Of a DNA stretch of 64,000 nt, positions 18,848 through 64,000 are shown piece by piece. Below the pieces are notes generated by a model. The model made no database searches and was not told the origin of the DNA. It saw only the letters and a program-made list of their open reading frames with translations. Where the stretch lies: NCBI GenBank assembly GCA_036245805.1, contig BTRK01000004.1, positions 42,992,907 through 43,056,906 of the forward strand, written 5' to 3'. The stretch comes from Pristionchus mayeri (Eukaryota; Nematoda; Chromadorea; Rhabditida; Neodiplogasteridae). Each line of letters starts with the position of its first letter. Position 1 is the first letter of the stretch. The position numbers and the translations under genes were made by a program.

Positions 18848-18849
18848 AG

Positions 18850-27697: not shown

Positions 27698-28584
27698 TTA
27701 TATATTTTATTGAAATTAGTGATTTCTCAGGTTTGCTCCCATCTGCTGCAGTCGATCCATCGAGATTTCGTTTTGAGCGAACATTAGTCGAACGCGCGTT
27801 TGTGGATCCTTACAAAATGTTTGACATTATTTTTTTGATTTTATTGAGAGAAAATGACCGAAACTAGCTGGTTTCCAAAATGACTGAAACATCTTGAAGC
27901 CAACATATTCTCAATAGATCTCGACATAGTTAAATATTTTACACTTATATAGTTGTTCTCTAGAATGACGGATAGTTGGAAAAATCAACAGGGTTCCCTC
28001 TTTCCTATCACTCGGTTAAGAGTGCGCCCTGTCACGCATATTTTTCGGCTTCCTCTCATCTGCTCTAGTTGATACCTTTTTTTAATCGATTTGCGCGATT
28101 CTTCATCGAGCACACATTCTTGGACCAATTCGAGGGAAAGGTTAGTATTTATTCTATAATTTACAGCAACAAGGAGGAAAATTCCCTATGTTTGGTCAGT
28201 TGTAAAGACAGTTGAAAGCATGTTTTCAATAGTTCTACCGTGGTTAATTTAATACCGATATTTTAGTAGTGATATCGTTCTTGCAAACAACTAGCGAACT
28301 GACAACGGGTCTTTCGCTATCTTATCGCATCACTCGATCAATAGTGAGCCTCGCTTGAACTTTCAGCAAGTATGTGATGTGGCAGTTAGGTGCAATTGTG
28401 CACGCTAAAGAAGGGGTAAGACGAAGGGATGCTAGGCAGTCCCACCACGAAGATATTGCGCTCGCAATGGGATGCTGTAGCCAAATTACCCCAAGAACGA
28501 GGCGAAAATTATGTAGAATAAGTGAAACATAAACGAGCTAGCCACAACCCTGCGCTGTCAATGAACTTTGCGCGTATGTAAATA
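27698..28584. other. no gene seen; short degenerate repeats
   Basis: No exon structure. A motif ATCACTCGG(T/A)(C/T)AA-AGTG recurs at 28006 and 28324 and also at 18440 and 26223, suggesting remnants of an old repeat. AT-rich. Confidence 0.35.
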
Positions 28585-28853
28585 TCGTCCCGAATTAAAA
28601 TTCCGCTACGAATGACTCGATGTTTGCGATTGTAACAAACTTTTTGTTACAAAATTTGGTAACACTCAAAACACACTTTCATGGGTCATGTTTGTATTCA
28701 TTCGATGCGTAATCATCGCGTCTTTCGATAAATATCACTTAAAAATTTTAATAATCAATAGTTTAGCCGATATTTATTTTTTTATAAAATAAAATCAGTT
28801 TGTGACTGTCATGGCAACATTTTGCAGCACTTGTGCCCGGCTTGGCCTACGAC

Positions 28854-29139
28854 TTTTTCTTAATCGCGAAATTACCGCGTTTCCCCTCGGTTTTCCATGT
28901 TTATGTTGCAATTTTTACTTGTTTTGTGTTTCAGGGTTCTTCTAAAATTCGAATAGATATTATGCGGAGTAAAAGAAGACCTCTTTCAAGAGGAGGCCAC
29001 TAAAGAATGGTAAGTTAAGTTTTACCCTTCACTTTCCTCTGTTTTTGATCAATGTGTGGCCTTTTTTCTTTCCAATTATTTCTTAAATAATGCCAAAATG
29101 CTGTCAGTTCGTTGTTCAGGCGTCCTCTAGGCGACCAGA
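28854..29139 (+). other. segment unique to the left arm, with a possible exon
   Basis: Missing from the right arm, where CCTACGAC joins directly to CAGAAAACAG. CGAC occurs at both edges here, so the right arm probably lost it by a deletion between 4-bp repeats. Within it, 28935-29009 is bracketed by GTGTTTCAG and GTAAGT and reads SSKIRIDIMRSKRRPLSRGG before a stop. It may be an exon of an element or host gene whose next exon is the Gly-rich segment. Unassigned. Confidence 0.4.
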
Positions 29140-29214
29140 AAACAGTCTTTCATCAGTTCATCGTCAGCAAAATGAGAAGCAGTGGATCAGATAGATAGTG
29201 GGTTATTTTGTAAA

Positions 29215-29528
29215 TATGTGAATATTTCTCTGATTTTGAGTCGTCCTTGAACAATTTTCAGTGGCGGTGGATCCGGGTACAGTAGCGGAGGTCGTAGTGG
29301 CGGAGGCTACGGAGGTTCAGGTTCTTGGCCGATCGCGATGGCTGAGGGAAGACGCTTGCGGTCAGTTTTAATTGCATATTTGTTTCCAATTCGAGTCCTA
29401 GCAATAGTTAAGGATATATTGCTCCTAGTAATTGTACAAGGCTATATTGCTTAGTCCTAGTAATTGTAAATTAGATTTTTGGTCATCAGCTAAAGCATCG
29501 ATAAAACTAAAAACTTTATTCATAGTCC
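29215..29528 (+). repeat. Gly-rich 310-bp module, copy 1
   Basis: A module repeated four times around the palindrome, in alternating orientation. It includes an exon-like segment (29262-29360), preceded by ACAATTTTCAG and followed by GTCAGT, that reads GGGSGYSSGGRSGGGYGGSG. Such Gly/Ser/Tyr-rich sequence resembles RGG or keratin-like low-complexity regions. It ends at TTCATAGTCCTTTGG, where transposase sequence begins. It acts as the inverted repeat of the inner element; a captured host exon is one explanation. Confidence 0.7.
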
Positions 29529-30327
29529 TTTGGAGTGGCTCCCTCCCAGCTGATGCCCCCCCCCCCAAATCATAAGCTGCAATGATAAAGGTAAGAATGA
29601 CAAAGAAGTAGAGGAACGTACACTGGGTGGATGCTTGAAGCGGGGCTTCACTCTGCGGGAGTTATCCCCCTTGAGGATATAGACGTAACGGCCCTTCACT
29701 CCAGATTGAACCATAGATTCGTCAGTGAAGCAATGGGAAGTGAACATCGTTCCCATGTCGAGATGGAGACGGCAGAAAGAATAGCGAGGGGCGCGATTCT
29801 GTAGGCGCACCGAATGGCCGTATCGCAGATTGCCCTTGTGCAGGCCAACCTCCATTCGGATTCGTTTCACCACCGTGACAGTGAGCTGAAATTTCTCAAT
29901 GATAACCTTGTGATTACGGTAGTGCTCATTAAGGTTACGGTAAGTGGTTTATGAGTAATAGATTACGGTAGTTGTGAATAAGGGGCTCACATTCTCATTG
30001 AAGAGCTCGGCGATCTGCTTCGCAAGATCAGATGGCTTCGTCTGCGAGTCCTCCAGATATGCTTCTCGGATGAGGTCGAAGATGGGAATGATATTTTCCT
30101 CATCGACGATAGAGGAGGGCTTGTAGGGCTTTACTTTATCGTAATCCTTGGTGAGAACGTGGCGCACTTGAGATCTTGAGACCTGTGCATCGTCTAATCC
30201 TCAATGAACGAATAGAAAATGGTACCTTCGTCTTGCCTATCGCATGGCATCTCCTCATGATCTCCCCACTAGTGAATCCAGCATCATTCCATGCTACCAC
30301 CTTATCCTTCCAAGTTCTCTCTGACAT
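29528..30327 (-). pseudogene. Tc1/mariner-like transposase, 3'-truncated (left copy)
   Basis: Mirror copy of the transposase at 35138-35937. Exons on the minus strand: 30226-30327, 29991-30182, about 29622-29885 and from 29576 down. It encodes the N-terminal helix-turn-helix region (RTWKDKVVAWNDAGFTSGEI), the linker RYGHSVRL and the first catalytic Asp in FTDESM. It stops at the conserved WGG block, where the sequence passes into the Gly-rich module after a run of C. The second and third acidic residues of the DDE triad are absent, so it cannot catalyse transposition alone. The start is the ATG after a short 5' region shared with the divergent companion gene. Confidence 0.8.
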
Positions 30328-30526
30328 CCTGAAACGATCAATAACACAAAATATTTGATGGAAATTAAACTATTATGTGAATAAAGCACTTCTATCTCGG
30401 TATTTCAAGTGATTTTTTCATCTGATGAAATGCACCTTCACCTGTCTCGAGCTCACTCAGTCGTCTCTTCACCTATTCTGTGTTCATGTATTGTCTCTCG
30501 TTATTGTATGCTCCTTTATTTCCAGG
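30328..30526. promoter_or_regulatory. divergent intergenic region of the palindromic element (left)
   Basis: This 199-bp gap separates the transposase ATG (30327, minus strand) from the companion-gene ATG (30527, plus strand). Any promoters for both genes must lie here or overlap it. No defined motif is recognised. The companion start is preceded by TATTTCCAG, so its 5' untranslated region may be spliced or trans-spliced. Confidence 0.4.
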
Positions 30527-32203
30527 ATGTACTACTGCCTCCTTAAAGTTGGAGACGACTACGTCGTGTGTGATCGACAGGAGATCAAGGGACCGGAGCT
30601 GGCATGGGGACCTGTCCAAGTGAAGAAAGAGAAGACATTGGTGGCTGCCACTTACGTCAATGGAGGGAATAAGAGAGAGATGGAGGGAGAGAAGAAGAGA
30701 TATGAAGAGGGACTGTTGAATCCTCCTCGTAAGATACAACCTCTCGTGAGTCAACTTCGATAGTCATTTCCGATCTCACTCAGAATGATTGACCTTGATC
30801 TTTTGAGTTCTCTATCGGTAAAGCGTGTGATGAGAGTGGAGAGGATGAGGAGATGGAGGAGGATGGAGAGCAGCCTCTCTCTAAGCGTCCGACTCGGGCT
30901 GCTGCAATGCGCCCCATCAAGAGGGAGCCCTCTCCTTCCCCTACTGGGAAGAGAAAGAGTGCAGCAGCAAGGGCGATTTCTCTTCCTCCGACGGGACTCC
31001 CTCTCTCTGCCAAGCCTCCCAAGAGTGCATCTCCCGCTGGCTCTCCTACTGTACCCACGCCCTCGCCTACCGTACCCACCTGCTCTACCGTACTCTCTAC
31101 TACTCCTTCCCCTCCAGGGATGCTTATGATATCTTCTTTTTTATCATTTGGACAATAAGAATAGATCACTACATAGGCACGGTGACCCTCGATATGATCT
31201 TCGCCAAGATTTGTGAGGTGCACACTGATGTGCAGAAGTTGGCGGTGCGAGTGGAGCGTGTGGAGAAGAAGCAGCGGGATATCGTGAATGACACCGTCGG
31301 CATTCGCCATGAGGTTAGGATTCTAAATTATCCTTCAGAATTGACGGAAAAACGTTTTCAGACTAAGGAAGTGGTGGAGAGCTCGAAGAGGGCTGAAGAT
31401 AAGATGGAAGCACTAATTTCGGTAGTGCAGGTACTCAGGGAGAGACTGCCCCCTCCCTCAAAAAGTCAGTCATATTAAGCATAATTTCGTTCGAGTACAA
31501 ATGTCTAGGAGTGAAGTACGGTATCTACGAGGGACTCACGGAGGAGAGGGTCGATGCTCTCGACGACGAGGACGACAATTGCCTCGTGTTCGCTGGCAAC
31601 CTCGATCGGCTCCTCTTCAAGAAGTCTCCTCTGCCCCATCAACAGAGAGACCAGGACAAGGTCAAATGGCTGATCGAGGTGAGGGGGTTACAATACATAC
31701 TATAGATAGTGATAAAAATAAGGGTAATTACTCTTGGTTATCAGGTGGTCACTCATCGTCGATGCCAAGGACCTGGAAGGGAGAAGAGACGCATGAAGAC
31801 CCAGATCCCCCAGAGGATCAATGTGAATGCCAAGCGAGTGGCTGATCGACTGGAGAGAAGAGAGGAGGAGAGAATGAACGAGCTGTTCCACTCTCAATCT
31901 AGGAATAGGCCCTCCCCCTATACTCCTCCCACTCTCATCTCAAAAACTCGAATTGCCTCTCGCACTGTCCTCGCTAACCCTTCAATGTCGACCACCCCTT
32001 CTCAGAAACAGTTCATTAGACCTCATACCCCTTCCCTTTCCTCCGTGACTCCCTCTCAATATCGATTGGCTATGAGACAACAGTCCACTCCCAATTACAC
32101 TATCCCCTTCCAGTCTCGAGTGAGATCGATCAGTCCCTTCGACTTTGAGGAAACCCCCTCCTCCTCCTACTATAACGAATATATTCACGAAGCGTTCATC
32201 TAG
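30527..32203 (+). CDS. transposon companion protein: N-terminal small domain, coiled coil, BEN-like C-terminus (left copy)
   Basis: Six exons: 30527-30745, from 30808 (3' end unresolved, about 31100), 31177-31313, 31362-31464, 31509-31678 and 31745-32203. Phases agree except at the unresolved donor. Residues 1-73 form a small module (YYCLLKVGDDYVVCDRQEIK). Next come an acidic then Ser/Pro/Lys-rich stretch with KREPSPSPTGKRKS (likely nuclear signal) and a coiled coil (VQKLAVRVERVEKKQRDIV). Then comes a globular block (GNLDRLLFKK, DQDKVKW, INVNAKRVADRL) resembling the BEN DNA-binding domain, and a Ser/Thr/Pro-rich tail. The order matches the gene at 57447-59360, which also has an intron just after the DKVKW block. 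BEN assignment is by pattern and is tentative. Function in transposition (DNA binding, targeting or repression) is inference. Confidence 0.7.
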
Positions 32204-32397
32204 ACATTTCTGTTGTTATTGGTCCAAGTTCCAACATTCTATGTTATGAGTTCAGAATAATAAACATTGTTCTCTATTAAATAATCTTTTACTAGGAAAC
32301 ATTACAATTAAACGAGCAAAAAATACAAGCCTTAAATCTGGACGAAGTCGCTGGGCCGAACGAGGGGAAACTGAAAAATGCATGATTATAGAATCCA

Positions 32398-32712
32398 AAG
32401 GACTATGAATAAAGTTTTTAGTTTTATCGATGCCTTAGCTGATGACCAAAAATCTAATTTACAATTACTAGGACTAAGCAATATAGCCTTGTACAATTAC
32501 TAGGAGCAATATATCCTTAACTATTGCTAGGACTCGAATTGGAAACAAATATGCAATTAAAACTGACCGCAAGCGTCTTCCCTCAGCCATCGCGATCGGC
32601 CAAGAACCTGAACCTCCGTAGCCTCCGCCACTACGACCTCCGCTACTGTACCCGGATCCACCGCCACTGAAAATTGTTCAAGGACGACTCAAAATCAGAG
32701 AAATATATATTA
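32398..32712 (-). repeat. Gly-rich 310-bp module, copy 2
   Basis: Inverted copy of 29215-29528 at the inner edge of the left arm. It shares GATGCCTTAGCT with copy 3, while copies 1 and 4 have GATGCTTTAGCT, exactly the pairing expected for a palindrome. Confidence 0.85.
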
Positions 32713-32752
32713 GAAATATATATTTGAAATATATATATATGAAATATATATA
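32713..32752. repeat. AT-rich palindrome centre
   Basis: About 40 bp made almost entirely of ATATAT and GAAATAT blocks joins the two arms. It is the likely loop of a foldback or the site where an end was joined or copied. Confidence 0.85.
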
Positions 32753-33067
32753 TAATATATATTTCTCTGATTTTGAGTCGTCCTTGAACAATTTTCAGTG
32801 GCGGTGGATCCGGGTACAGTAGCGGAGGTCGTAGTGGCGGAGGCTACGGAGGTTCAGGTTCTTGGCCGATCGCGATGGCTGAGGGAAGACGCTTGCGGTC
32901 AGTTTTAATTGCATATTTGTTTCCAATTCGAGTCCTAGCAATAGTTAAGGATATATTGCTCCTAGTAATTGTACAAGGCTATATTGCTTAGTCCTAGTAA
33001 TTGTAAATTAGATTTTTGGTCATCAGCTAAGGCATCGATAAAACTAAAAACTTTATTCATAGTCCTT
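32753..33067 (+). repeat. Gly-rich 310-bp module, copy 3
   Basis: Direct-orientation copy at the inner edge of the right arm, running from the AT-rich centre to TTCATAGTCCTTTGG. Confidence 0.85.
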
Positions 33068-33261
33068 TGGATTCTATAATCATGCATTTTTCAGTTTCCC
33101 CTCGTTCGGCCCAGCGACTTCGTCCAGATTTAAGGCTTGTATTTTTTGCTCGTTTAATTGTAATGTTTCCTAGTAAAAGATTATTTAATAGAGAACAATG
33201 TTTATTATTCTGAACTCATAACATAGAATGTTGGAACTTGGACCAATAACAACAGAAATGT

Positions 33262-34938
33262 CTAGATGAACGCTTCGTGAATATATTCGTTATAGTAGGA
33301 GGAGGAGGGGGTTTCCTCAAAGTCGAAGGGACTGATCGATCTCACTCGAGACTGGAAGGGGATAGTGTAATTGGGAGTGGACTGTTGTCTCATAGCCAAT
33401 CGATATTGAGAGGGAGTCACGGAGGAAAGGGAAGGGGTATGAGGTCTAATGAACTGTTTCTGAGAAGGGGTGGTCGACATTGAAGGGTTAGCGAGGACAG
33501 TGCGAGAGGCAATTCGAGTTTTTGAGATGAGAGTGGGAGGAGTATAGGGGGAGGGCCTATTCCTAGATTGAGAGTGGAACAGCTCGTTCATTCTCTCCTC
33601 CTCTCTTCTCTCCAGTCGATCAGCCACTCGCTTGGCATTCACATTGATCCTCTGGGGGATCTGGGTCTTCATGCGTCTCTTCTCCCTTCCAGGTCCTTGG
33701 CATCGACGATGAGTGACCACCTGATAACCAAGAGTAATTACCCTTATTTTTATCACTATCTATAGTATGTATTGTAACCCCCTCACCTCGATCAGCCATT
33801 TGACCTTGTCCTGGTCTCTCTGTTGATGGGGCAGAGGAGACTTCTTGAAGAGGAGCCGATCGAGGTTGCCAGCGAACACGAGGCAATTGTCGTCCTCGTC
33901 GTCGAGAGCATCGACCCTCTCCTCCGTGAGTCCCTCGTAGATACCGTACTTCACTCCTAGACATTTGTACTCGAACGAAATTATGCTTAATATGACTGAC
34001 TTTTTGAAGGAGGGGGCAGTCTCTCCCTGAGTACCTGCACTACCGAAATTAGTGCTTCCATCTTATCTTCAGCCCTCTTCGAGCTCTCCACCACTTCCTT
34101 AGTCTGAAAACGTTTTTCCGTCAATTCTGAAGGATAATTTAGAATCCTAACCTCATGGCGAATGCCGACGGTGTCATTCACGATATCCCGCTGCTTCTTC
34201 TCCACACGCTCCACTCGCACCGCCAACTTCTGCACATCAGTGTGCACCTCACAAATCTTGGCGAAGATCATATCGAGGGTCACCGTGCCTATGTAGTGAT
34301 CTATTCTTATTGTCCAAATGATAAAAAAGAAGATATCATAAGCATCCCTGGAGGGGAAGGAGTAGTAGAGAGTACGGTAGAGCAGGTGGGTACGGTAGGC
34401 GAGGGCGTGGGTACAGTAGGAGAGCCAGCGGGAGATGCACTCTTGGGAGGCTTGGCAGAGAGAGGGAGTCCCGTCGGAGGAAGAGAAATCGCCCTTGCTG
34501 CTGCACTCTTTCTCTTCCCAGTAGGGGAAGGAGAGGGCTCCCTCTTGATGGGGCGCATTGCAGCAGCCCGAGTCGGACGCTTAGAGAGAGGCTGCTCTCC
34601 ATCCTCCTCCATCTCCTCATCCTCTCCACTCTCATCACACGCTTTACCGATAGAGAACTCAAAAGATCAAGGTCAATCATTCTGAGTGAGATCGGAAATG
34701 ACTATCGAAGTTGACTCACGAGAGGTTGTATCTTACGAGGAGGATTCAACAGTCCCTCTTCATATCTCTTCTTCTCTCCCTCCATCTCTCTCTTATTCCC
34801 TCCATTGACGTAAGTGGCAGCCACCAATGTCTTCTCTTTCTTCACTTGGACAGGTCCCCATGCCAGCTCCGGTCCCTTGATCTCCTGTCGATCACACACG
34901 ACGTAGTCGTCTCCAACTTTAAGGAGGCAGTAGTACAT
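33262..34938 (-). CDS. transposon companion protein with BEN-like C-terminus (right copy)
   Basis: Mirror image of 30527-32203. The ATG is at 34938, the first exon is 34720-34938 and the stop is at 33262. Every open segment listed for the left copy is present with identical translation, so both copies appear equally intact. Its transcription points toward the palindrome centre, so transcripts of the two copies converge and could anneal into double-stranded RNA. Confidence 0.7.
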
Positions 34939-35137
34939 CCTGGAAATAAAGGAGCATACAATAACGAGAGACAATACATGAACACAGAATAGGTGAAGAG
35001 ACGACTGAGTGAGCTCGAGACAGGTGAAGGTGCATTTCATCAGATGAAAAAATCACTTGAAATACCGAGATAGAAGTGCTTTATTCACATAATAGTTTAA
35101 TTTCCATCAAATATTTTGTGTTATTGATCGTTTCAGG

Positions 35138-35937
35138 ATGTCAGAGAGAACTTGGAAGGATAAGGTGGTAGCATGGAATGATGCTGGATTCACTAGTGGG
35201 GAGATCATGAGGAGATGCCATGCGATAGGCAAGACGAAGGTACCATTTTCTATTCGTTCATTGAGGATTAGACGATGCACAGGTCTCAAGATCTCAAGTG
35301 CGCCACGTTCTCACCAAGGATTACGATAAAGTAAAGCCCTACAAGCCCTCCTCTATCGTCGATGAGGAAAATATCATTCCCATCTTCGACCTCATCCGAG
35401 AAGCATATCTGGAGGACTCGCAGACGAAGCCATCTGATCTTGCGAAGCAGATCGCCGAGCTCTTCAATGAGAATGTGAGCCCCTTATTCACAACTACCGT
35501 AATCTATTACTCATAAACCACTTACCGTAACCTTAATGAGCACTACCGTAATCACAAGGTTATCATTGAGAAATTTCAGCTCACTGTCACGGTGGTGAAA
35601 CGAATCCGAATGGAGGTTGGCCTGCACAAGGGCAATCTGCGATACGGCCATTCGGTGCGCCTACAGAATCGCGCCCCTCGCTATTCTTTCTGCCGTCTCC
35701 ATCTCGACATGGGAACGATGTTCACTTCCCATTGCTTCACTGACGAATCTATGGTTCAATCTGGAGTGAAGGGCCGTTACGTCTATATCCTCAAGGGGGA
35801 TAACTCCCGCAGAGTGAAGCCCCGCTTCAAGCATCCACCCAGTGTACGTTCCTCTACTTCTTTGTCATTCTTACCTTTATCATTGCAGCTTATGATTTGG
35901 GGGGGGGGGGGGGCATCAGCTGGGAGGGAGCCACTCC
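35138..35937 (+). pseudogene. Tc1/mariner-like transposase, 3'-truncated (right copy)
   Basis: Exons: 35138-35239, 35283-35474, 35580-35843 and from 35889, all in phase (34, 64 and 88 codons, then about 16). The 88-codon third exon has the same length as exon 3 of the intact transposase at 56677-56940, with shared RYGHSVRL and FTDESM motifs. After LMIWGG the reading enters a run of G (35899-35914, longer than the C run in the left copy), continues GISWEGATP-like in another frame, then meets the Gly-rich module. The catalytic residues that normally follow (the D of QDNAP and the E of SPDLNP-x-E) are missing. Tc1-type assignment is secure; activity is not expected. Confidence 0.82.
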
Positions 35938-36250
35938 AAAGGACTATGAATAAAGTTTTTAGTTTTATCGATGCTTTAGCTGATGACCAAAAATCTAATT
36001 TACAATTACTAGGACTAAGCAATATAGCCTTGTACAATTACTAGGAGCAATATATCCTTAACTATTGCTAGGACTCGAATTGGAAACAAATATGCAATTA
36101 AAACTGACCGCAAGCGTCTTCCCTCAGCCATCGCGATCGGCCAAGAACCTGAACCTCCGTAGCCTCCGCCACTACGACCTCCGCTACTGTACCCGGATCC
36201 ACCGCCACTGAAAATTGTTCAAGGACGACTCAAAATCAGAGAAATATTCA
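35937..36250 (-). repeat. Gly-rich 310-bp module, copy 4
   Basis: Outer copy in the right arm, inverted relative to copy 1, joined to the truncated transposase at CCACTCCAAAGGACTATG. Confidence 0.85.
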
Positions 36251-36604
36251 CATATTTACAAAATAACCCACTATCTATCTGATCCACTGCTTCTCATTTT
36301 GCTGACGATGAACTGATGAAAGACTGTTTTCTGGTCGTAGGCCAAGCCGGGCACAAGTGCTGCAAAATGTTGCCATGACAGTCACAAACTGATTTTATTT
36401 TATAAAAAAATAAATATCAGCTAAACTATTGATTTTTAAATTTTTTGTGTGATATTTAGCGAAAGACGCGATGATTACGCATCGAATGAATACAAACATG
36501 ACCCATGAAAGTGTGTTTTGAGTGTTACCAAATTTTGAAACAAAAAGTTTGTTACAATCGCAAACATCGAGTCATTCGTAGCGGAATTTTAATTCGGGAC
36601 GATA

Positions 36605-50430: not shown

Positions 50431-50680
50431 TCCTGAAAATTTTGCCAGAGGGACCAAAGCTGCACTTGTGCGTAATGGGCAAGTGCCCCGTTGCCGCTCC
50501 TAGCGCCCCCACTCCCACACTCCCACAAACCTTACAACAAAAAAGCTTACGGGTTACTGGTAATGTAGCATAGCAATAGCAATTCGAGCCAAATGTGCCT
50601 TTGCACACCTTTCCGCATTGAGGACACACATATGTACTGCCCGAGAAGAATTCTAAATTATAATTAATTATGTAAATTAG
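50431..50680 (-). repeat. 250-bp repeat, copy 2
   Basis: Second copy of 47431-47680, with a handful of substitutions. It carries the same cysteine-rich minus-strand frame. Confidence 0.75.
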
Positions 50681-51928: not shown

Positions 51929-52391
51929 ATTTGAAGTCATTTCATTAGAGGCATACCGCGCGCTTTTCACAATGAAGTGAAGAATGAGTGGAGGGTCGAC
52001 CATCGACTGTTAATTTCAAATATGTTTCTGTCATGTTTTAACTGAACTATGACAAGCTTTATTCGTAACACATTTGAAACATATTTTACATTAAGAGACC
52101 GGATCGGTAAGACTCGACCATAATAGCCACCCCCCGGCCACGGCCCCCCGGAATGGGAACCAGGCCACCATACTTTGTGCATGTAGACCCCTTGGTCCCT
52201 TGTTGCAGAAAGGGCCACTTATTTATCGATTTCGTTGACATGTACTAAAATACAAGGCTTCAAAGTCAAAAAATCGAAATTTCATAATTTCTGAACGGAA
52301 AAGGATAGACTCAAAATCTCTTTTGCATTACACTAGATATGCCCAATAACCAAAATTAAGCTACCCTGATCGAATCTCATCCAATTGTATT
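51929..52391. other. no gene seen; solo TTAAGAGACCG end
   Basis: At 52091 the sequence TTAAGAGACCGGATCG resembles the terminus of the foldback element at 26347. It is not followed by a recognisable arm; possibly a related but divergent element fragment. Confidence 0.4.
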
Positions 52392-54189
52392 ATCGTGCAC
52401 CGAGTCCACATTGAAGAAACATGTTCCATAATGTTCCATAGTGGAACGTTTTTTTCCATGTTTTTCCATTTTCGAAATTCTATATTAAAATGGATGAACT
52501 GATGGCTGTATTTGTGTGCGGAGCTTCAATACTTTATTTTTAATCGATTTGTGTGAAAAAAGAAGAGAAAATATTCATTAATTTATTATTTGAGCTATTT
52601 CAGCAAAAAATCCTATAATTGGCATTTTGCGATCGCTAAAAGTTTACTACAGAGCAGGTTACGGTACCCACTGGTCTTTCGTGAGTTGTTCTCTTTTATC
52701 TTTGCCTATTCCCGCATTCACTTTTTTCGGAGTTTCTAATCAATAATTCACTGCTTTCTATTGATTATTTGCTGCAATTCCATGTCCTCATATCACCACC
52801 AGAGTATCCGCCTCTGTTCAATGCCCTGTTCGCTCTCAAAAACCGCGTCATTTAGCTAACTTCATTGTTTAATTGCAATTGCTCTGTTTTTGTGTTCATA
52901 TATTGGACGCCCATGCATGTTTCACTGCCCACTACTATTACTTAGCATGCGCCGTGTTCGTGTTTAGTCGATATTCAAACTTTGACTCTGGGAAAATCGA
53001 TTTATAGTATGTTTTTTTTGAGGCCACTTTTTAAGCGTGGTTTGCTTGCTCTTCGCCAAGTTGTTTTCCCCTTATTGTTCGATTTTCGTGCTGTTTAAAT
53101 TTAAATATTCTAGGATGAACCGCACTCTTGGATTCCGTCGCCTCGCTGTCCGCGCCACCCAGCAGACGCGCGCCTCCTCTGGCAGTTCACGCCCGCCGAC
53201 AGCACCATGACCACCTGGAGAAAGGTACGCCTCCTTGACGTTACATTATTAGTCCATTCCATCCCTGGTCAATCAACGTATTTATTCATTTCGCTTGGTT
53301 ATGTATAATAGCTTGATTAATTGACTGGAACCGTAAAATTATCACTATTAGTAAGGGAACGCCGTCAAGAAGTCGCAGTTTTTAAATAAATGCTCGAATT
53401 TAATGTAATTCCGTTCCAGATCTTCTACGTCGCTTCTCTCCCGTGCCTCGCCCTCACCATGTACGCCGCCTTCACGGTATGCTTTATTTTATTTGATTTT
53501 TTATAAAAGTTGTTTTTATATTGGGTGAAACCACCTTTATGTTGTTGTTATCCTCAAATTTTTTAATGCCCTCTTGCACTTCTTACGGAGACAGCTTCAA
53601 AATAATGTTGTTACACTGCTGCATTTTGCAATATAGGTGATTCTATCATATTCCTCTTTTCCAGGACCACGCGAAGCACGGGAGTCAGCTAGCCCTACCT
53701 CAACGTGCGCAACAAGGTTATTTTTCATTTATTTATTTAAATTTGTGCGGTTTGCTCACTTTCGAGAAACGATTATGCACGTTCGTAACCTTATTTTTAT
53801 GAGAGAACTTGAAACGTCCTTGTTATTGTCCGTTGGTGTGCACAAGCTGTTGATAGAGAAATAAGTTGCAAGCAACCATAGTCATAGTTACTGCATTTTG
53901 TTTGAATCTTTATCTAATCTGCATTAATCCTACTCCGTTTGCAGCATTTCCCTTGGGGCGACGGCAACCACTCCCTCATCCACAACAAGAGCGAGCAGCG
54001 CGTGCCCGGAGTGGGCTTTGAGGAGGACCGCAAGCACCACTAGAGGAGCAACGAGTAGATAGAGGTGAGTTGCTTATCGTCTTCCATTAACGCGTGACCC
54101 TACTCGCATTGCTGTTCTACTTTCTTTGGAACATAAATCTAATTAGTGAAACATTAAAATTACTGGGACTTGACATCGTATTGTATTTA
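52392..54189 (+). repeat. left arm of the host-gene inverted duplication (1.8 kb)
   Basis: Reverse complement of 60258-62062, starting at ATCGTGCACCGAGTCCAC and ending at ATTGTATTTAG, where the Tc1-like element begins. It includes a 5' flank, the whole cox6A-like gene and 145 bp beyond its stop. The arms differ at scattered single bases. Confidence 0.93.
53115..54043 (+). pseudogene. cytochrome c oxidase subunit 6A, frameshifted (left copy)
   Basis: Subunit 6A is a nuclear-encoded, single-pass inner-membrane component of mitochondrial complex IV. Exons: 53115-53224, 53420-53476, 53665-53716 and 53945-54043. Exon 1 opens with a basic presequence-like leader (MNRTLGFRRLAVRATQQTRA), exon 2 is the membrane helix (FYVASLPCLALTMYAAF), and exon 4 holds the diagnostic HFPWGDGNHSLIHN block. 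Two single-base shifts break it. In exon 1 the leader frame stops before TTWRK, which lies in the next frame; exon 1 is 110 nt rather than 111. In exon 3 DHAKHGS and PYLNVRNK are in different frames, with an in-frame TAG. Splice sites remain good. The ATG follows a TATTCTAG acceptor. Both inverted copies share both lesions, so they predate the duplication. Confidence 0.85.
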
Positions 54190-54283
54190 GTCCCCCCAAT
54201 GTGACCCCCCAATGTGATTAGGAGAACATCCGATTATTTTGGACTGATTTATTTCCCGCATTCCCTCTCTTGTTGTTTAGTAT

Positions 54284-54458
54284 GATAACTAGGTTATTAT
54301 ATGTTATCAAATCACTGTTATTGCTTCGGCAATTTCATTGTATTTGTAAATTAGTAAATTCTTTACGCTATTTTTTTTAGTTTGAGCCTCGGGGACACAA
54401 GCACGGATTCCAGTTAGACTACACATTGTGCAATAGGCAAATTAGGCGATCGTGTACA
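54284..54458 (+). repeat. terminal-repeat segment, direct copy 1
   Basis: TATGATAACTAGGTTATTAT through GGCGATCGTGTACAT, repeated in direct orientation at 55676-55848 and inverted near 59485-59675. It marks the original subterminal inverted repeat of the element. Confidence 0.85.
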
Positions 54459-54595
54459 TCCCATCTATTTAACGTTTCTCAGAACCTTGGAAGACATTGG
54501 GACCATTACGATGGAAAAAAAAGACGATACAGTAACATAATTCACAGAATTAACAGCGACGACCTTACTATGGGAACATCTATAATGGAGAGTAG

Positions 54596-55555
54596 GGCTT
54601 AGAGTTGCAAATATTCTCTGCTACCCTCTCTCTGGATAGGGGGATTCTCTACCGGGTATCCTCCCATGTTCTCTCCCGTGTGATCTCCTTCGTCAGCCAC
54701 ATTGTCCACTCCTTCTGGACCTTCTTCCTCATCCTCGTCCATACCATTCTCCCCTCCTATCTCCTCAATCCCCTCTCCCTCCACTTCGTCCATCTCAATC
54801 CCATTCTTTTCGAACTGTATTCTTCTTAGTGAAGCGTATGAATTGAGTCGCTTCCTCACTGCTCCAATGGCGATCATCTCTCCGTCCTTTCCCCTCAGTC
54901 CAATTCCGAATCTACGGAGGTGGAGAAGACACTGCAAGGAGAATGGTATGTAAAAGGTGAGCCTTTTTTTTTTAAAAATAACTTAACGTCTTACATTCTT
55001 CAGCCAGTTCCATTTGACTTGATCTCTGTCTTTTATAGAGAGTCTTCGCTCTTTGAGAGTGAACAAGCTCTTGTCGAGCGCGTTCGCAAACGACAAGAGT
55101 TCTTTGTTGTTCTCATCCATCACAGCCACCTCTTCCATCGACAGGTACTTGTAGACAAAGTCTGTAGGATACTTTTGACTTACAATAATACTAAGTAGAG
55201 AACCTTTTGGTGGGGCAGGCATCATATCCTTGATTGTCTCCGTGCCTTGCGCGGCCTTCTGAGCATTTGCTACTATGGAGGGAGTAGCAGATGCCACTTG
55301 GCGAACCTAGATGTACAGAGTAATGATATTATAACGAATTCATTTGCATTCTCTGCTATTCTGGATTCCAGTGTGTGCTACAGTACTGAGCATAGCTCGC
55401 TGTCCCTCAACTGCATCGGCGATCTCATCAGCTTGACCCTCCAGGCGGTCGATTCTGGCATTGACTTTTCTCATGCCGTCGTCGAATTTCTTCTCGAGTG
55501 CCTTCATCTGCTTCCCGAGAGTGCTCCCCATCGCCTGCACTGCTGCGAGCACTGA
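54596..55555 (-). pseudogene. companion-gene 3' exons in the left inverted end
   Basis: Carries companion exons 6-8 (coiled coil, BEN-like block, acidic tail) without exons 1-5. Two residue differences from the full gene are visible: RLEGQAD versus RPEGQAD and RDQVKW versus RDHVKW. It lacks a start and is probably silent, unless transcribed inward from the flanking host DNA. Splice sites are retained. Confidence 0.8.
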
Positions 55556-55675
55556 AGAAAAAGTTTGACTTCTCCCTTTTTCTCTCTCCCTGAATCGGCT
55601 ATTGCCCAGCATGTAGGTAGATCACTTATAAATGAAACGCTCCATATCATAAACAAAGGAATTCTTTCAGATTGC

Positions 55676-55848
55676 TATGATAACTAGGTTATTATATGTT
55701 ATCAAATCACTGTTATTGCTTCGGCAATTTCATTGTATTTGTAAATTAGTAAATTCTTTACGCTATTTTTTTTAGTTTGAGCCTCGGGGACACAAGTACG
55801 GATTCCAGTTAGACTACACATTGTGCAACTTAGGCGATCGTGTACATT
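55676..55848 (+). repeat. terminal-repeat segment, direct copy 2 (original left subterminal repeat)
   Basis: The same 173 bp as 54284-54458, lacking the outermost 90 or so bp of the element. It shows where the original left end was before the inverted copy was added. Confidence 0.8.
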
Positions 55849-55972
55849 AGGTCACATCGTAGAAACATCTTTATTGCAATTTTTTGACACATCGGCGACA
55901 AACGATTACGATAGAGATTCGACGATATAACAATTGATAGATTCATCGTGAAAACAGTAGATAGAATGTAAA

Positions 55973-57363
55973 CTAGTCTTTAACGGGCTTTCCATCTACT
56001 TCAATGACTCTTCTCATTTGGGTGTGCACATGTCGAATGTAATTTTGGCATTTATCGGCAGTGAGCACGTTCGTCCAGAACTCGTTGATTCCCTCTACTA
56101 GGTGGGGCACGTTAGTGGGTTTCCAAGTCGTCTTGAGATATCGCTTCATTTCTCCCCAGACCAACTCCACAGGATTGAGGTCTGGGGATTCTGCAGGCCA
56201 GTCCTCTGTCTTCAATGATTAGGGTTATTTTTATATCTCTCAACTAGAATCACAATGTTTACTTTCTTCACGTTCTCTACCGAGTGCCCTTTATCATGCA
56301 GATCAGAAATAGTACCTCGATCTCCTCCCTTTTGAGGAACTCCTTGGTTATGTTTGCTTTATGACAGGGCGCATTGTCCTGCACCAGCAATGACTTCCCT
56401 CCGAAGTTCTCCCTAAAACGTGAGTCTTTTCTTCGGATGTAGTTACATTTTGTTTTAGTATTTCCGATAATTCAGACTATTATGAGTATTTATACGATAC
56501 TTACACACCTTTCCCACTCCACGTATCCGTCCCTGAGGATCTTGCAGTACTCGACTGCATCGACTCGGCATGAACCATCAAGGACAACCAGGTTGGTCGG
56601 GCCTTTCCAAGAGATCCCACCCCACACAAGCACCTCAATCAGACACATTTAATTCACAATTGAGATATACTCCAACCTTCTGAGGGTGCTTGAAGGTACT
56701 TTTGATGCGTCTATCCCTTGCCGTAGACAACACCCAGACCTTCCTTGAGTTGGAATCGAGTTGAATCATCGATTCATCCGTGAAGATGTGCTTCCGGAAG
56801 GTACAGTTCTCCTCGATTCGTGCCTTGCACCAGTCGACTCGAGGTTGGCGATTCGCCAGACGGACTGAGTGACCATATCTCACGTCCAGATTGACATAGC
56901 CAATCTCCTTCCTGATCCTTTCCACTGGGTACTCGGATAGCTGAAATAGAAATAATTGGGAAAACAAGTGATTGTGTGTACCTGCAGGCCGAATTCTGTC
57001 TCGATGGATTGGAGAAGAGACGAGAGAGTAATCTCGTCGTCGTCCTCGTACATCTTCGCGATGTGAGACCGAACGGCATGGTACAGATCGGGAGGGATGG
57101 TCTCAGGTCGAGGACAGTAGTCCTTCTCCAGCTTGGGTGGGAGGGCAAGAAGACGCTGAATGGTCGTCGGGGAGACCACATGGCCCATGGCAAGAAGGCG
57201 CCTCGACATTTCCGTATAAGGGATTCCTTGATCATCCCATCCCACTAAGCAGTCCTTCCATGTCTTGTCCACGTTCTGTTCAAATTATTAATGTTCACGT
57301 GTGAAAGGAGATGATAAAATGTCGATGCTAAATACTCACAATGCTTGCCAGGGATTGCGCCAT
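55973..57363 (-). CDS. Tc1-like DD34E transposase, apparently intact
   Basis: Cut-and-paste transposase. Six in-phase exons on the minus strand: 57340-57363, 56982-57275, 56677-56940, 56505/56508-56633, 56316-56408 and 55973-56209, giving about 346 residues, the usual Tc1 length (about 343). The N-terminus has a paired helix-turn-helix region (KTWKDCLVGWDDQGIPYTEM, then VVSPTTIQRLLALP). The catalytic core shows D1 in FTDESM, a WGGISWKGP block, D2 in VQDNAPCHKA and E in SPDLNPVELVWGEMK. Counting across the exon 5/6 junction leaves exactly 34 residues between D2 and E, the Tc1 signature, which also supports that splice choice. The start is ATG at 57363 (MAQSLASI, then the acceptor TTGAACAG). 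It is divergent from the companion gene with 83 bp between starts. No lesion seen. Confidence 0.88.
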
Positions 57364-57446
57364 TGTAAGATGAACTCGTTTCCAACGAAGAATGGAGAGT
57401 ACCTGGAATGTGTACATAGAGATGAGTATGCAGCATTGTTTCATAG
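57364..57446. promoter_or_regulatory. 83-bp divergent promoter region
   Basis: The only DNA between the transposase ATG (minus strand) and the companion ATG (plus strand). Both 5' regions must overlap here, so expression of the two genes is likely coupled or mutually limiting. No core motif was identified. Confidence 0.45.
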
Positions 57447-59360
57447 ATGTCGGTTATTATGCTTATCGATGGGGATTTCGAACTAGTCGACCGCAGTTCT
57501 CTCAAGAAAGGAAGTGTCGAGGGTCTGGGCGAGAAATGCTACTTCGAGTATCACGGTGTGAGAAAGGAGGGCATATTCTGCCAGGGAGGTGTCCATAAGG
57601 CAATGGAGAAGGAACTGGGAAACTGGAGAGATGGGATAAAAACGATCGACAATCAACGGAAGAAGAAAGATCTGGTTAGCCAATTACAAAGTGATATTGA
57701 ATGAACGGTTCGCAGAAGCGAACTGTCATCGTTCGGGGAAAGTCGGTGGAAGTGGCGGTGAGAGAGAAGAGAGAGAAGAGGAAGAAGGGATCAGGTAGGT
57801 CGTTCCTTCCATCACAAATCGCACGTGAAATATCAGATGATGATCTAGTAGCAGTGGAGAAGAAGGTCAAGGTTGTTAAAGGTAAGTTTTCACTCTCGTT
57901 TTGTGCTAGAACTGTGAATTCAGGGGGAGCAGGGACAATGAAAGGAGAGAATGTGAGGCCTTCCCGATCTGCAGGAGGTTAGATTTTCGAATATTGCACG
58001 GTTTCTGGAGAGGTAGTATTCAGGAGATGGAACTGGTGATGATCTCAGTGGTCTTTCCCAGATGATGGTCAGATTGAATAGTGGGGAATCCACAGGAGAT
58101 GGACGACCAGGTTAAATGAAATGATAATTTATCTCAATACAAGACATAGATTCGTCGAAATCTCGGAAAGTGGGTCGGAGTGTGGAGAGGGCATCGAACC
58201 GGAGCCCGACCCCTGTGCTGGAGGACGATTCGGAGGAGGAGGAGGGAGCTGCACCCGATCTATCAGGACTGAGCGGGGACGGAGCAATCTGTAAGAATTC
58301 CTTTGTTTATGATATGGAGCGTTTCATTTATAAGTGATCTACCTACATGCTGGGCAATAGCCGATTCAGGGAGAGAGAAAAAAGGAGAAGTCAAACCTTT
58401 TCTTCAGTGCTCGCAGCAGTGCAGGCGATGGGGAGCACTCTCGGGAAGCAGATGAAGGCACTCGAGAAGAAATTCGACGACGGCATGAGAAAAGTCAATG
58501 CCAGAATCGACCGCCCGGAGGGTCAAGCTGATGAGATCGCCGATGCAGTTGAGGGACAGCGAGCTATGGTCAGTACTGTAGCACACACTGGAATCCAGAA
58601 TAGCAGAGAATGCAAATGAATTCGTTATAATATCATTACTCTGTACATCTAGGTTCGCCAAGTGGCATCTGCTACTCCCTCCATAGTAGCAAATGCTCAG
58701 AAGGCCGCGCAAGGCACGGAGACAATCAAGGATATGATGCCTGCCCCACCAAAAGGTTCTCTACTTAGTATTATTGTAAGTCAAAAGTATCCTACAGACT
58801 TTGTCTACAAGTACCTGTCGATGGAAGAGGTGGCTGTGATGGATGAGAACAACAAAGAACTCTTGTCGTTTGCGAACGCGCTCGACAAGAGCTTGTTCAC
58901 TCTCAAAGAGCGAAGACTCTCTATAAAAGACAGAGATCATGTCAAATGGAACTGGCTGAAGAATGTAAGACGTTAAGTTATTTTTTTTTAAAAAAGGCTC
59001 ACCTTTTACATACCATTCTCCTTGCAGTGTCTTCTCCACCTCCGTAGATTCGGAATTGGACTGAGGGGAAAGGACGGAGAGATGATCGCCATTGGAGCAG
59101 TGAGGAAGCGACTCAATTCATACGCTTCACTAAGAAGAATACAGTTCGAAAAGAATGGGATTGAGATGGACGAAGTGGAGGGAGAGGGGATTGAGGAGAT
59201 AGGAGGGGAGAATGGTATGGACGAGGATGAGGAAGAAGGTCCAGAAGGAGTGGACAATGTGGCTGACGAAGGAGATCACACGGGAGAGAACATGGGAGGA
59301 TACCCGGTAGAGAATCCCCCTATCCAGAGAGAGGGTAGCAGAGAATATTTGCAACTCTAA
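57447..59360 (+). CDS. transposon companion protein with coiled coil and BEN-like domain, intact
   Basis: Eight exons: 57447-57674, 57716-57881, 57924-57977, 58024-58110, 58150-58290, 58408-58568, 58653-58964 and 59028-59360. All phases agree, giving 493 residues without a stop. Order: N-terminal module (MSVIMLIDGDFELVDRSSLK), a basic stretch (VREKREKRKKGS, likely nuclear signal), Ser/Gly-rich linker, acidic patch (DDSEEEEGA), a coiled coil (KQMKALEKKFDDGMRKVNAR), a globular BEN-like block (ALDKSLFT, KDRDHVKW, IGAVRKRLNSYASLRR) and an acidic tail. Same architecture as the gene at 30527-32203, including an intron directly after the VKW block. BEN domains bind DNA and recruit chromatin factors, so a role in end binding, target choice or element silencing is possible but inferred. 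Exons 6-8 lie in the inverted end. Confidence 0.8.
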
Positions 59361-59758
59361 GCCCTACTCTCCATTATAGATGTTCCCATAGTAAGGTCGT
59401 CGCTGTTAATTCTGTGAATTATGTTACTGTATCGTCTTTTTTTTCCATCGTAATGGTCCCAATGTCTTCCAAGGTTCTGAGAAACGTTAAATAGATGGGA
59501 TGTACACGATCGCCTAATTTGCCTATTGCACAATGTGTAGTCTAACTGGAATCCGTGCTTGTGTCCCCGAGGCTCAAACTAAAAAAAATAGCGTAAAGAA
59601 TTTACTAATTTACAAATACAATGAAATTGCCGAAGCAATAACAGTGATTTGATAACATATAATAACCTAGTTATCATACTAAACAACAAGAGAGGGAATG
59701 GGGGCAATAAATCAGTCCAAAATAATCGGATGTTCTCCTAATCACATTGGGGGGTCAC
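58284..59758 (+). repeat. right inverted end of the element
   Basis: The source copy of the left inverted end: companion exon-5 tail, exons 6-8, 3' region and terminal repeat, ending ATTGGGGGGTCAC then TA. Confidence 0.9.
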
Positions 59759-59760
59759 TA

Positions 59761-60257
59761 ATTGGAGGGAGGGGAGGGGAGGGGGGGGGGGGATTCCTTT
59801 ATCCTCGTCGAGTGATCCGAGACTGCCTGGAACAAATATTGTTTGGATTGCATGAATTTTTCTAATGAGGGAAATTGTTAGGTAGTAGTCACAATCGTGT
59901 TCAGCTTATCACACCTTTACAATCGAATGAAAGATTGTAAGCAACTCACTCTCCCTTCCCATCTACCAGGCAAACCCACGTTTCAAACTTATAATAAATA
60001 AACAACTGGACCATTTTATCGCAATTAGTTACTGCTATGTGTTTTATACACGTAAGAAAAAGTAAACAAAAAAAATGTGTAACGAACTAACCAGTGGTGA
60101 ATCCGAATCCGCGCGTGCGCTTCGTCGTCGTGTCGTCGACGTTGATCAGCTCGCGCCCATCTTAAAGCAATGCAATTAAGTTGATAAATTGCGAATGAGT
60201 AGTAGAGAGTGCTCCCTTTTAGAAAAATAATCGCATCAAGATTCTTGATTCAATAAT
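59761..60257. other. unpaired segment between the element and the right host arm
   Basis: This has no counterpart on the left. It begins with a G-rich run (GGAGGGAGGGGAGGGG) next to the element end and contains the candidate exon at 60092-60160. It is presumably the original host DNA downstream of the cox6A-like gene. Confidence 0.6.
60092..60160 (-). CDS. candidate exon, unknown protein
   Basis: Minus strand: the acceptor GCTTTAAG precedes 69 bases reading GRELINVDDTTKRTRGFGFT, then a GTTAGT donor. It lies about 250 bp downstream of the right cox6A-like copy in the same orientation, so it could be a following gene or an extra exon. Not recognised. Confidence 0.35.
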
Positions 60258-62062
60258 GGACTAAATACAATACGATGTCAAGTCCCAGTAATTTTAATGT
60301 TTCACTAATTAGATTTGTGTTCCAAAGAAAGTAGAACAGCAATGCGAGTAGGGTCACGCGTTAATGGAAGACGATAAGCAACTCACCTCCATCTACTCGT
60401 TGCTCCTCTAGTGGTGCTTGCGGTCCTCCTCAAAGCCCACTCCGGGCACGCACTGCTCGCTCTTGTTGAGGACGAGGGAGTGGTTGCCGTCGCCCCAAGG
60501 GAAATGCTGCAAACGGAGTAGGATTAATGCAGATTAGATAAAGATTCAAACAAAATGCAGTAACTATGACTATGGTTGCTTGCAACTTATTTCTCTATCA
60601 ACAGCTTGTGCACACCAACGGACAATAACAAGGACGTTTCAAGTTCTCTCATAAAAATAAGGTTACGAACGTGCATAATCGTTTCTCGAAAGTGAGCAAA
60701 CCGCACAAATTTAAATAAATAAATGAAAAATAACCTTGTTGCGCACGTTGAGGTAGGGCTAGCTGACTCCCGTGCTTCGCGTGGTCCTGGAAAAGAGGAA
60801 TATGATAGAATCACCTATATTGCAAAATGCAGCAGTGTAACAACATTATTTTGAAGCTGTCTCCGTAAGAAGTGCAAGAGGGCATTAAAAAATTTGAGGA
60901 TAACAACAACATAAAGGTGGTTTCACCCAATATAAAAACAACTTTTATAAAAAATCAAATAAAATAAAGCATACCGTGAAGGCGGCGTACATGGTGAGGG
61001 CGAGGCACGGGAGAGAAGCGACGTAGAAGATCTGGAACGGAATTACATTAAATTCGAGCATTTATTTAAAAACTGCGACTTCTTGACGGCGTTCCCTTAC
61101 TAATAGTGATAATTTTACGGTTCCAGTCAATTAATCAAGCTATTATACATAACCAAGCGAAATGAATAAATACGTTGATTGACCAGGGATGGAATGGACT
61201 AATAATGTAACGTCAAGGAGGCGTACCTTTCTCCAGGTGGTCATGGTGCTGTCGGCGGGCGTGAACTGCCAGAGGAGGCGCGCGTCTGCTGGGTGGCGCG
61301 GACAGCGAGGCGACGGAATCCAAGAGTGCGGTTCATCCTAGAATATTTAAATTTAAACAGCACGAAAATCGAACAATAAAGGGAAAACAACTTGGCGAAG
61401 AGCAAGCAAATCACGCGTGAAAAGTGGCCTCAAAAAAACATACTATAAATCGATTTTCCCAGAGTCAAAGTTTGAATATCGACTAAACACGAACACGGCG
61501 TATGCTAAGTAAGAGTAGTGGGCAGTGAAACATGCATGGGCGTCCAATATATGAACACAAAAACAGAGCAATTGCAATTAAACAATGAATTTAGCTAAAT
61601 GACGCGGTTTTTGAGAGCGAACAGGGCATTGAACAGAGGCGGATACTCTGGTGGTGATATGAGGACATGGAATTGCAGCAAATAATCAATAGAAAGCAGT
61701 GAATTATTGATTAGAAACTCCGAATAAAGTGATTTCGGGAATAGGCAAAGATAAAAGAGAACAACTCACGAAAGACCAGTGAGTACCGTAACCTGCTCTG
61801 TAGTAAACTTTTAGCGATCGCAAAATGCCAATTATAGGATTTTTTGCTGAAATAGCTCAAATAATAAATTAATGAATATTTTCTCTTCTTTTTTTCACAC
61901 AAATCGATTAAAAATAAAGTATTGAAGCTCCGCACACAAATATAGCCATCAGTTCATCCATTTTAATATAGAATTTCGAAAATGGAAAACATGGAAAAAA
62001 TGTTCCACTATGGAACATTATGGAACATGTTTCTTCAATGTGGACTCGGTGCACGATATCGA
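60258..62062 (-). repeat. right arm of the host-gene inverted duplication (1.8 kb)
   Basis: Inverted partner of 52392-54189. Small differences (for example GCGTGCCCG versus GCGTGCACTGC context near 60447, and CCCTTATT versus CCCTTTATT near 61380) show the arms are not identical. Confidence 0.93.
60408..61336 (-). pseudogene. cytochrome c oxidase subunit 6A, frameshifted (right copy)
   Basis: Exons on the minus strand: 61227-61336, 60975-61031, 60735-60786 and 60408-60506, mirroring the left copy and carrying the same two frame lesions (exon 1 of 110 nt; TAG in the exon 3 homologous frame). One codon in exon 4 differs (CACTGCTCG against CGCTGCTCG context). Because this arm keeps the longer 3' flank, it is probably the ancestral location. 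No intact cox6A is present in the window; a working copy must exist elsewhere if the animal respires normally. Confidence 0.85.
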
Positions 62063-64000
62063 GTGTCTGATCATAAATTTCGGTTTTTGCTCAAAACTAT
62101 TACCATATGGAAAAACCAGGCCGGCTTACTATGCATAAAATATACCTTTATGAACACTGCATCAAAATTTCAACTTGAAAGGTCAATTCATTTTACATGT
62201 TTTTTATCACTAATGCTCAAATGTGTGAAATTTTAGCTTTTTCATTCTAATCTTCTTCGTTTATACCGAGTCGAAGCACAAGTGATGAAAAAATAGACTA
62301 CAACATGGGAGAACGTGAAAACACATCGAAACACCGGATTTTGAATCGTTCGAAAAATGGCGGTTTTAGAAATCTCGATTGTATTCAAATTTGGGCATGT
62401 CAAAGTGTGGATTTTCAAACCCAAGAAGATGCGCCTACCACTAAAACTAAAGAACACTTCCACCTAAATAAGAAAATTGACATATAAGGTTCTGTGCAAA
62501 TTTTCAGGTCCGGATATTTGTCACCGAACATTGCAAAAGTGATCACGTCGACCAAAATTTTTTTTCTCCTGATACTTTGCATGTTGTATATCACCAATCG
62601 CTTCCGTGCCACTCCCTTTCCCCCTCTCGCCGCCATTTCTCTCTCTGACAAATCTAATTAATGTTGAATTGTTGGAGCCCTGAAAGGTGCGCGAATTTGG
62701 AGATGTCGCCCTTTCTGATACAGTAAGTTTGGCTTTCTTGACATCGTTAATTAAACTAATTATGTGTATCAAAGTTTGAAACTTCAGTATCTGCAACACC
62801 CAACCCCCTTGACCAGAGTTCCCTTAGCAGTCGTGCGTTCTCGGTAGCAGAGCTATGTGACCGTCGGTCGGATCATTGTGCATTTCGGTTCCCTTTGGTC
62901 ACGAGGTTCTTTCGAGAGTCGCTGCAATATAGACAGTTCAAAATGTTTGTTGCTCTGACAAGCGTCTGTAGGCACAAAAAATAGTTTGGATGTCGATCAA
63001 AAATCGTCCGCACACAGCCTGTCAAACTGGATGAAATTGCGGCGGACGTATTCTGATGAGTTCTCACCAGAAAAATCAAATATTTGTTGTGAAGCGTAAC
63101 CAATTTTCAGTTTTAAAGTCAATATTTATTGATAGAGCTTAGGGAAGCTCGAAACCTAGATCGAAAATGGAAAATCGGCTTCCTGAGAACTCTTGGCCGA
63201 TGTATGCTCTATCGACTGATGTATTTCACTGATCAGCAACTTGTGATCGGATAGAGTTATTTAAGCTTTAAGTTTAAAAAAAGCTTCGACAGTAAATTGA
63301 ATATGTTTCAAAAGATATATTTGATTTTCGTGTTTTGAATGGCGTTAAAGCTGACAAATTATTATGTTTCATCAATGATATTTGTCAGGGGAATGATTAC
63401 GAGAGCGAACAAAGAAAGACCTCGTCTGCCACACAAATACGCCTTTACATCCATTCTGACAGGCTGTGCCACATTTATAGTCAATCAATTTTCCTTTTTA
63501 CTTCATGGTAGATAAAAAATTACATGTTACAAGACTATACGGAAAGCGATTCTCCATTAAAAAAAACCCGATTCGCGCGTTAGCTTCCTATCATTCAAGG
63601 AGAGGGAGAGGCTAATGACAATATGAATATACTGGTGATTGTGTGATCTAGAGATGAGAGCAGAGCATGAATTCGAGTCATTCACCTATATATATGCATC
63701 GTTTACTTGTGTTTAATGCATAATCGCACATCAAACACACTCCAACTGTATCCTCAAATAAGAAAATTTTCGATCACTTTCCTTTTTACTTTCATCCCTA
63801 TTCCGCGAGATTGAAGCAGGCGAATCAGACTATGGTTTCCTTTGTGAGGAGACTACCCAGACCTGACCAGAACAGCTCACGGCGTATTACTGTGTCTTTT
63901 CAGTTCTTCCTTTCACTTGACCGCACTTCCTCCCACACTTACCGTCTTCCTTCGCTCTTTCGACATAGAGATATATCGCCGAAAGTCAAAGAGTGGAGTA
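62063..64000. other. no gene seen
   Basis: I find no exon chain. Open frames on both strands are short and of low-complexity composition. Pyrimidine tracts occur at 62600-62640 and 63890-63960. Confidence 0.4.

Follow-up and report, generated by a model that had tools for sequence, protein, structure and literature searches.

The 64,000-nucleotide stretch of the Pristionchus mayeri genome analyzed here (the window; C4:42992907-43056906 of a 290.8 Mb assembly) was found to contain a TA-bounded transposable element, E1, which carries two divergently transcribed genes, one for a Tc1-like transposase and one for a second protein, termed the companion. The same pair recurs in five families of elements in the genome of this diplogastroid nematode, the companion is under purifying selection, and near-identical copies of the element are dispersed through the genome. 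The usual single-gene plan of Tc1-like elements is not followed, and the elements probably represent a lineage of Tc1/mariner in which a second protein, accessory or regulatory, is conserved. Tc1/mariner transposases are textbook single-protein systems, and hence genetic tools. The elements described here are a real variant of this plan, none like it having been found described in the literature searched. Genome searches were made in this one assembly with the best candidates being scored, and locus counts are therefore counts among the matches listed and no census. Contigs are designated C1-C6, individual genomic loci L021-L044 and so forth, and families E1 (a, b), E2, F3, F4, and F5.

The structures of both genes are predicted splice models. 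The transposase model gives a protein of 346 residues, which matches the Pfam domain DDE_3 (PF13358; E=2e-18, 67.1 bits against a cut-off of 28.6) and, at its N-terminus and under the cut-off of 31.5, HTH_Tnp_Tc3_2 (E=6.1e-5, 23.7 bits). The distance from the second D to the E was counted by eye as 34 residues with the chosen splice and as 36 under an alternative one. An intact Tc1-like DD34E transposase, as proposed in an earlier note on this DNA, was thus confirmed, as was the divergence of the two genes from a shared region, their start codons being 83 bp apart. The nearest relatives of the transposase in a protein search were from P. mayeri, P. pacificus, P. entomophagus, and P. fissidentatus, followed by hookworms and other strongylids.

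The companion is made up of an N-terminal small domain, a basic stretch, a coiled-coil-like stretch (recognized by eye), a C-terminal helical block and an acidic tail. Its length, first given as 493 residues, was corrected to 465 on comparing copies, which revealed an extra intron (58756-58797) and turned a nine-exon model into one of ten exons. All nine introns have GT...AG borders in the window copy and in L027, L030, and L039. The N-terminal domain is recognizable across families (42 of 76 positions identical between F3 and F4, and 35 of 73 between F4 and E2), and is followed by a charged region, the coiled-coil-like stretch (again by eye) and the helical block, in which one tryptophan (W) is invariant in five sequences. 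Pfam scans of the E1, E2, F3, and F4 companions gave nothing above cut-off, with chance-level matches only (E of 0.05 or worse), and comparison with PDB sequences gave no match (best E 0.27 and 0.86).

The borders of E1 were mapped by aligning eight E1-type copies (L021, L022, L023, L025, L026, L030, L031, and L034) to the window. Homology begins at 52387-52391 and ends at 62058-62064, running continuously across position 59758 in all eight copies. The borders put forward previously, 54190 and 59758, were accordingly rejected as internal breakpoints, with the true TA-flanked ends at 52391 and 62058 (Table 1). The apparent ends are explained by the left arm of the window copy, in which the 487 bp corresponding to 59771-60257 are missing at 54190 and the sequence runs on into an inverted copy of right-end sequence (58283-59770). 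The inner part of this inserted segment (54191-55676) was not seen in the left arm of any of the eight copies listed above. The segment includes a partial inverted copy of the 3' exons of the companion (54602-55576), and read-through over it could give double-stranded RNA against the companion.

The sequence TA followed directly by TCGTGCACC was present at 25 of 25 E1-type ends inspected, including both window borders. These comprise the two ends of six copies, the window copy among them, and the left end alone of a further 13 (without L036 and L038); left ends dominate because most right ends of E1b copies fell beyond the stretches retrieved. Six E1 copies, that of the window included, and single copies of E2, F3, and F4 are flanked by TA on either side, in keeping with a TA target site duplication. 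The ends of E1, E2, F3, and F4 read TA followed by TCGT and then a similar sequence containing CCGA, with TA-TCGT at both ends in the single copies of E2, F3, and F4. Terminal inverted repeats are present as inverted arms of ~1.0-3.6 kb in nine elements compared (E1-type, E2, F3, and F4), the main arms within an element differing by 0.3-2.6%. Those of L022, L023, and L024 are ~2.55 kb long and 98.9-99.7% identical. Both arms of the window E1 were also seen to hold a COX6A-like gene remnant (53022-54043, with its mirror in 60258-62058; PF02046 E=0.02, below the cut-off). Near 53116 an exon for a targeting peptide may be recognized by eye. The element thus contains two inverted copies of host-like sequence.

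Table 1. Features of the E1 and E2 elements in the window (positions are those of the window).
Feature	Position	Strand	Remarks
Whole E1 element with flanking TA	52391..62058		element proper 52393-62056, 9.66 kb; ends TCGTGCACCGAG
E1 outer left arm	52393..54193		inverted copy at 60258-62056, 98.8% identity
E1 extra inner left arm	54191..55676	-	inverted copy of 58283-59770, 99.0%
E1 internal piece of original left arm	55676..55847	+	direct repeat of 54281-54459, 95.5%
E1 transposase gene	57363-55973	-	6 exons, 346 residues, DD34E with chosen splice
Region separating the two divergent start codons	57364..57446		83 bp, from gene models
E1 companion gene	57447..59360	+	10 exons, 465 residues
E1 right arm	59500..62056		matching left arm complete, ~2.55 kb, in L022, L023, L024
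E2 element with flanking TA	28583..36604		8.0 kb; ends TCGTCCCGAATT; 7.2 kb is a 99.7% palindrome (29132-36337)
E2 transposase, first copy, truncated	29531..30327	-	match stops at residue 209 of 291 of P0013; no second D or E
E2 companion, first copy	30527..32203	+	sequence match
E2 companion, mirrored copy	33265..34938	-	sequence match
E2 transposase, mirrored truncated copy	35138..35938	+	sequence match

A search for the companion gave 26 last-exon matches among those listed, two of them in the window. Twenty of the 24 places listed outside it were fetched, and at all 20 the companion has the transposase next to it on the other strand. When the exon borders of the window copy, in which both frames are open, were transferred onto these loci, both frames were open in 13 and that of the transposase alone in one more; both genes are truncated in one (L022). 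Further families were located with an E2-type companion query and an F4 transposase query. Counting one row per locus, 77 transposase loci were obtained from one listing and 92 companion loci from two. A divergent companion lies within 5 kb of 64 of the 77 transposase loci. Nine of the 13 first unlinked transposases form family F5, and an F5 companion query gave nine N-terminal matches, each adjoining one of the nine F5 transposases (coordinates compared by eye). This results in a total of 73 paired loci, with four unlinked (C5:18632335, C4:13858416, C2:38981594, and C3:40734374). A listed transposase accompanies 64 of the 92 listed companion loci. It had been reasoned in the earlier note that companions occurring mainly as single-copy host genes away from any transposase would speak against a transposon gene. 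The opposite was seen, the companions being multicopy and most of those listed adjoining transposases, with 13 listed companion loci left neither linked nor explained.

The transposase of E1 shares 40% identity with that of E2 over matched segments, 30-33% with those of F3 and F4, and 29 and 53% in two segments with that of F5, while the E1 and E2 companions match at E=4e-9 (two-sequence BLASTP, filters off). The pair has the same layout between the arms of F3 (L041; 1.44 kb) and F4 (L042; 1.03 kb). At L044, the sole F5 locus read, the divergent companion has the same parts, and ends and inverted arms were not found within the 5 kb read. A 62-bp inverted repeat (90%) lies around this F5 pair (L044 146-207 and 4228-4289); we take it to resemble ribosomal protein L14 coding sequence, and it is perhaps another captured host fragment.

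Comparison of the companion of E1a (window) with that of E1b (L030) gave 65.8 synonymous changes over 310 sites and 47.2 nonsynonymous changes over 1085 sites, i.e., a synonymous divergence (dS) of 0.25, a nonsynonymous divergence (dN) of 0.045 and a dN/dS of 0.18. Similar ratios were obtained for the window copy with L027 (0.18) and L039 (0.19) and for L021 with L030 (0.17), the four pairs ranging from 0.166 to 0.188. The companion introns differ from those of the window by 8.6% (L030) and 8.0% (L027). The companion is under purifying selection. Since five diverged families also share its pairing with the transposase, it very likely belongs to the machinery or control of the transposon, in agreement with the suggestion of the earlier note. 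It is very improbable that the companion was captured from the host and is carried along as a passenger. Capture may happen in such elements, as suggested by the COX6A-like sequence in the E1 arms, itself below its Pfam cut-off; however, a passenger would not be expected to keep its place and orientation in five diverged families or to have a dN/dS of 0.18, and no clear single-copy host homolog of the companion was found among the matches listed, in which 13 companion loci are unexplained.

Over 55950-57349, the half of the element that holds the transposase, L030, L027, and L039 are 94-100% identical to the window per 100 bases. Over the companion half they are mostly 90-98% identical, but only 73-84% around the helical block. 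The most diverged exon is that of the block (window 58798-58964 against L030 6679-6843; dS about 1.1). Between E1a and E1b, dS is 1.05-1.20 in this exon compared with 0.12-0.31 in other parts, and dN/dS of the block is 0.11-0.15; between F3 and F4 the block has a dN of 0.20 and a dS, near saturation, of 1.36. The excess of dS suggests that the block was exchanged with another lineage, and from these alignments the E1 copies appear best explained as mosaics produced by recombination among lineages. Exchange of the block among lineages would also be in keeping with a companion that faces the host, as a chromatin or anti-silencing protein which maintains germline expression of the element. Such a role would fit if the C-terminal block were BEN-like, since proteins with a BEN domain are chromatin factors. 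This explanation is nevertheless unlikely, as the block is under purifying and not diversifying selection and a BEN identity was unsupported by every test made.

The tests in question were as follows. The BEN profile PF10523 gave no match at E<=10 with the companions of E1, E2, F3, and F4, the filters discarding most matches above 0.1. A profile comparison of the companion with three BEN chains, in which 'RDQEKLEWLIKVV' of the companion aligned on 'LDPGKIQDIIFAV' of 4ix7 (RE55538p, presumably Drosophila Insensitive), scored 14.3; three of 150 column shuffles scored equally or higher, and a reversed control scored 9.8. An AlphaFold model of companion P0050, built from three sequences, had a mean predicted local distance difference test score (pLDDT) of 41 with a helical C-terminal part, and a fold comparison with this low-confidence model placed no BEN chain among the best 10 matches. 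The C-terminal block of the companion resembles the BEN proteins 4ix7 and 4x0g (Bsg25A) in being helical by eye, but differs from them in having no significant sequence or profile match. The BEN-like block described in the earlier note is thus not established by Pfam, PDB sequence search or profile comparison, and BEN identity is a possibility and an unproven label.

At L043 a derivative was read that has lost most of the transposase, the deletion junction lying at L043 2572. The same junction was found at seven places including L043 (99-100% over 201 bases; contigs C1, C2, C3, and C6), and companion matches are listed beside all seven, L043 alone having been read directly. Together with the dispersed open-frame copies, this derivative points to movement in trans. 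It is conceivable, if rather doubtful, that the companion represses the element or regulates its copy number, in the manner of the truncated KP product of the P element, and that such derivatives, in keeping the companion, act as repressor-makers. The presence of companion matches at all seven places is consistent with this, as is the E2 element of the window, in which the transposases are truncated and the companions present. However, transposase deletions are common in DNA transposons, and a transposase-less derivative shows movement in trans and not selected retention of the companion, L043 being the one place of the seven that was read.

The E2 element at 28.6-36.6 kb had been taken as a second, unrelated-looking insertion. 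It has the same divergent pair, but it is not an independent intact element because it is palindromic and both of its transposase copies are truncated. The palindrome contains four copies of a 313-bp unit (29222-29534, 32394-32706, 32759-33071, and 35935-36247), which includes a glycine-rich, coding-like stretch. Sequencing chimeras can yield near-identical palindromes such as this one, and chimeric reads might in principle have made both the palindromes and the pairing. Such an assembly artifact is extremely improbable, as dozens of loci on large contigs, differing in their flanks, hold the pair and the main arms within elements are not identical (see above).

Several observations weigh against the companion serving these elements as an accessory or regulatory factor. 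Among the matches listed, 28 of the 92 companion loci are without a transposase: nine are E1-type loci which have one on direct reading, one is an unfetched E1-type place, and 18 belong to types other than E1, of which five carry the transposase-deletion junction and 13 are unexplained. The latter include C1:28741530 and C1:28754537, two of ten E2-type places outside the window among the loci L001-L020, where no transposase was found in 3.2 kb. The F5 search also gave C4:33372951 and C5:31660030 (weaker), with no known transposase there, and L027 and L028 may be one insertion assembled twice, since the left flank is common to both. The companion has no recognized domain of known function in Pfam and PDB sequence searches. 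Protein searches, which required shared 5-residue words and scored 7994 candidates each, placed the companions in P. mayeri only, whereas relatives of the transposase were found in further species of Pristionchus and in strongylids.

The P. mayeri elements share with Tc1-like DD34E elements a DDE_3 transposase, a TA target site and terminal inverted repeats. They differ in having a second conserved gene, in that each gene of the window copy contains introns, and in arms of about 1.0-3.6 kb, the usual Tc1-like inverted repeats being tens to hundreds of bp. In searches of titles and the beginnings of abstracts, not extending to subscription journals or Repbase, neither a two-gene Tc1 element of animals nor a BEN protein inside a transposon was found described; one paper on P. 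mayeri with mention of a transposon came up, and there is no mention of a second open reading frame, two genes, a companion or BEN in PMC9297572. According to one paper, the TBE transposons of Oxytricha are Tc1/mariner elements with two accessory proteins under purifying selection, an observation which is there called surprising for Tc1/mariner elements (PMC12242761). The P. mayeri elements, likened to TBE by description only, similarly combine a Tc1/mariner transposase with an accessory protein under purifying selection, but have an animal host and one companion, in which no zinc-finger or kinase domain was found. In PIF/Harbinger elements the transposase is of the DDE_Tnp_4 type, the target is TWA or TNA, and the second protein is Myb-like. 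With a DDE_3 transposase and a TA target, the P. mayeri elements do not belong to that group. PIF/Harbinger and related elements are nevertheless described as two-gene DNA transposons (PMC5543537, PMC9179366). The likeness, in that a protein other than the transposase has a gene of its own in the element, is a comparison of how they may work.

The window also contains a head-to-tail tandem duplication of 7.8 kb (11061-18847 and 18843-26630; 99.95% identity), another palindrome of 1.1 kb (43740-44825) and a cluster of related direct repeats (45341-50680).

A Tc1/mariner lineage with a second, conserved element-encoded protein would be expected to work as follows. The DD34E transposase would cut at the TA-TCGT ends and insert at TA, while the divergently transcribed companion would be a nuclear, probably DNA-binding and oligomerizing protein; DNA binding is something we infer, since no domain of known function was recognized. 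The companion may act with the transposase, or on the ends and promoter region of the element, and so take part in transposition or its control as an accessory or regulatory factor, by analogy with the second protein of PIF/Harbinger and the accessory proteins of TBE. Its action could go in either direction, as helper or as repressor. It is tentatively proposed, at somewhat less than an even chance, that transposition depends on or is set by the second protein, i.e., that this is an obligate and recently mobile two-protein system with kilobase arms, at least five families and the spread of transposase-less derivatives that keep the companion.

These observations suggest that two proteins rather than one would run or control these Tc1-like elements. 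The existence of several families and of many open-frame E1 copies makes such a two-gene system testable, and the role of an accessory protein, be it in end recognition, copy-number control or escape from germline silencing, becomes approachable in a tractable nematode genus.

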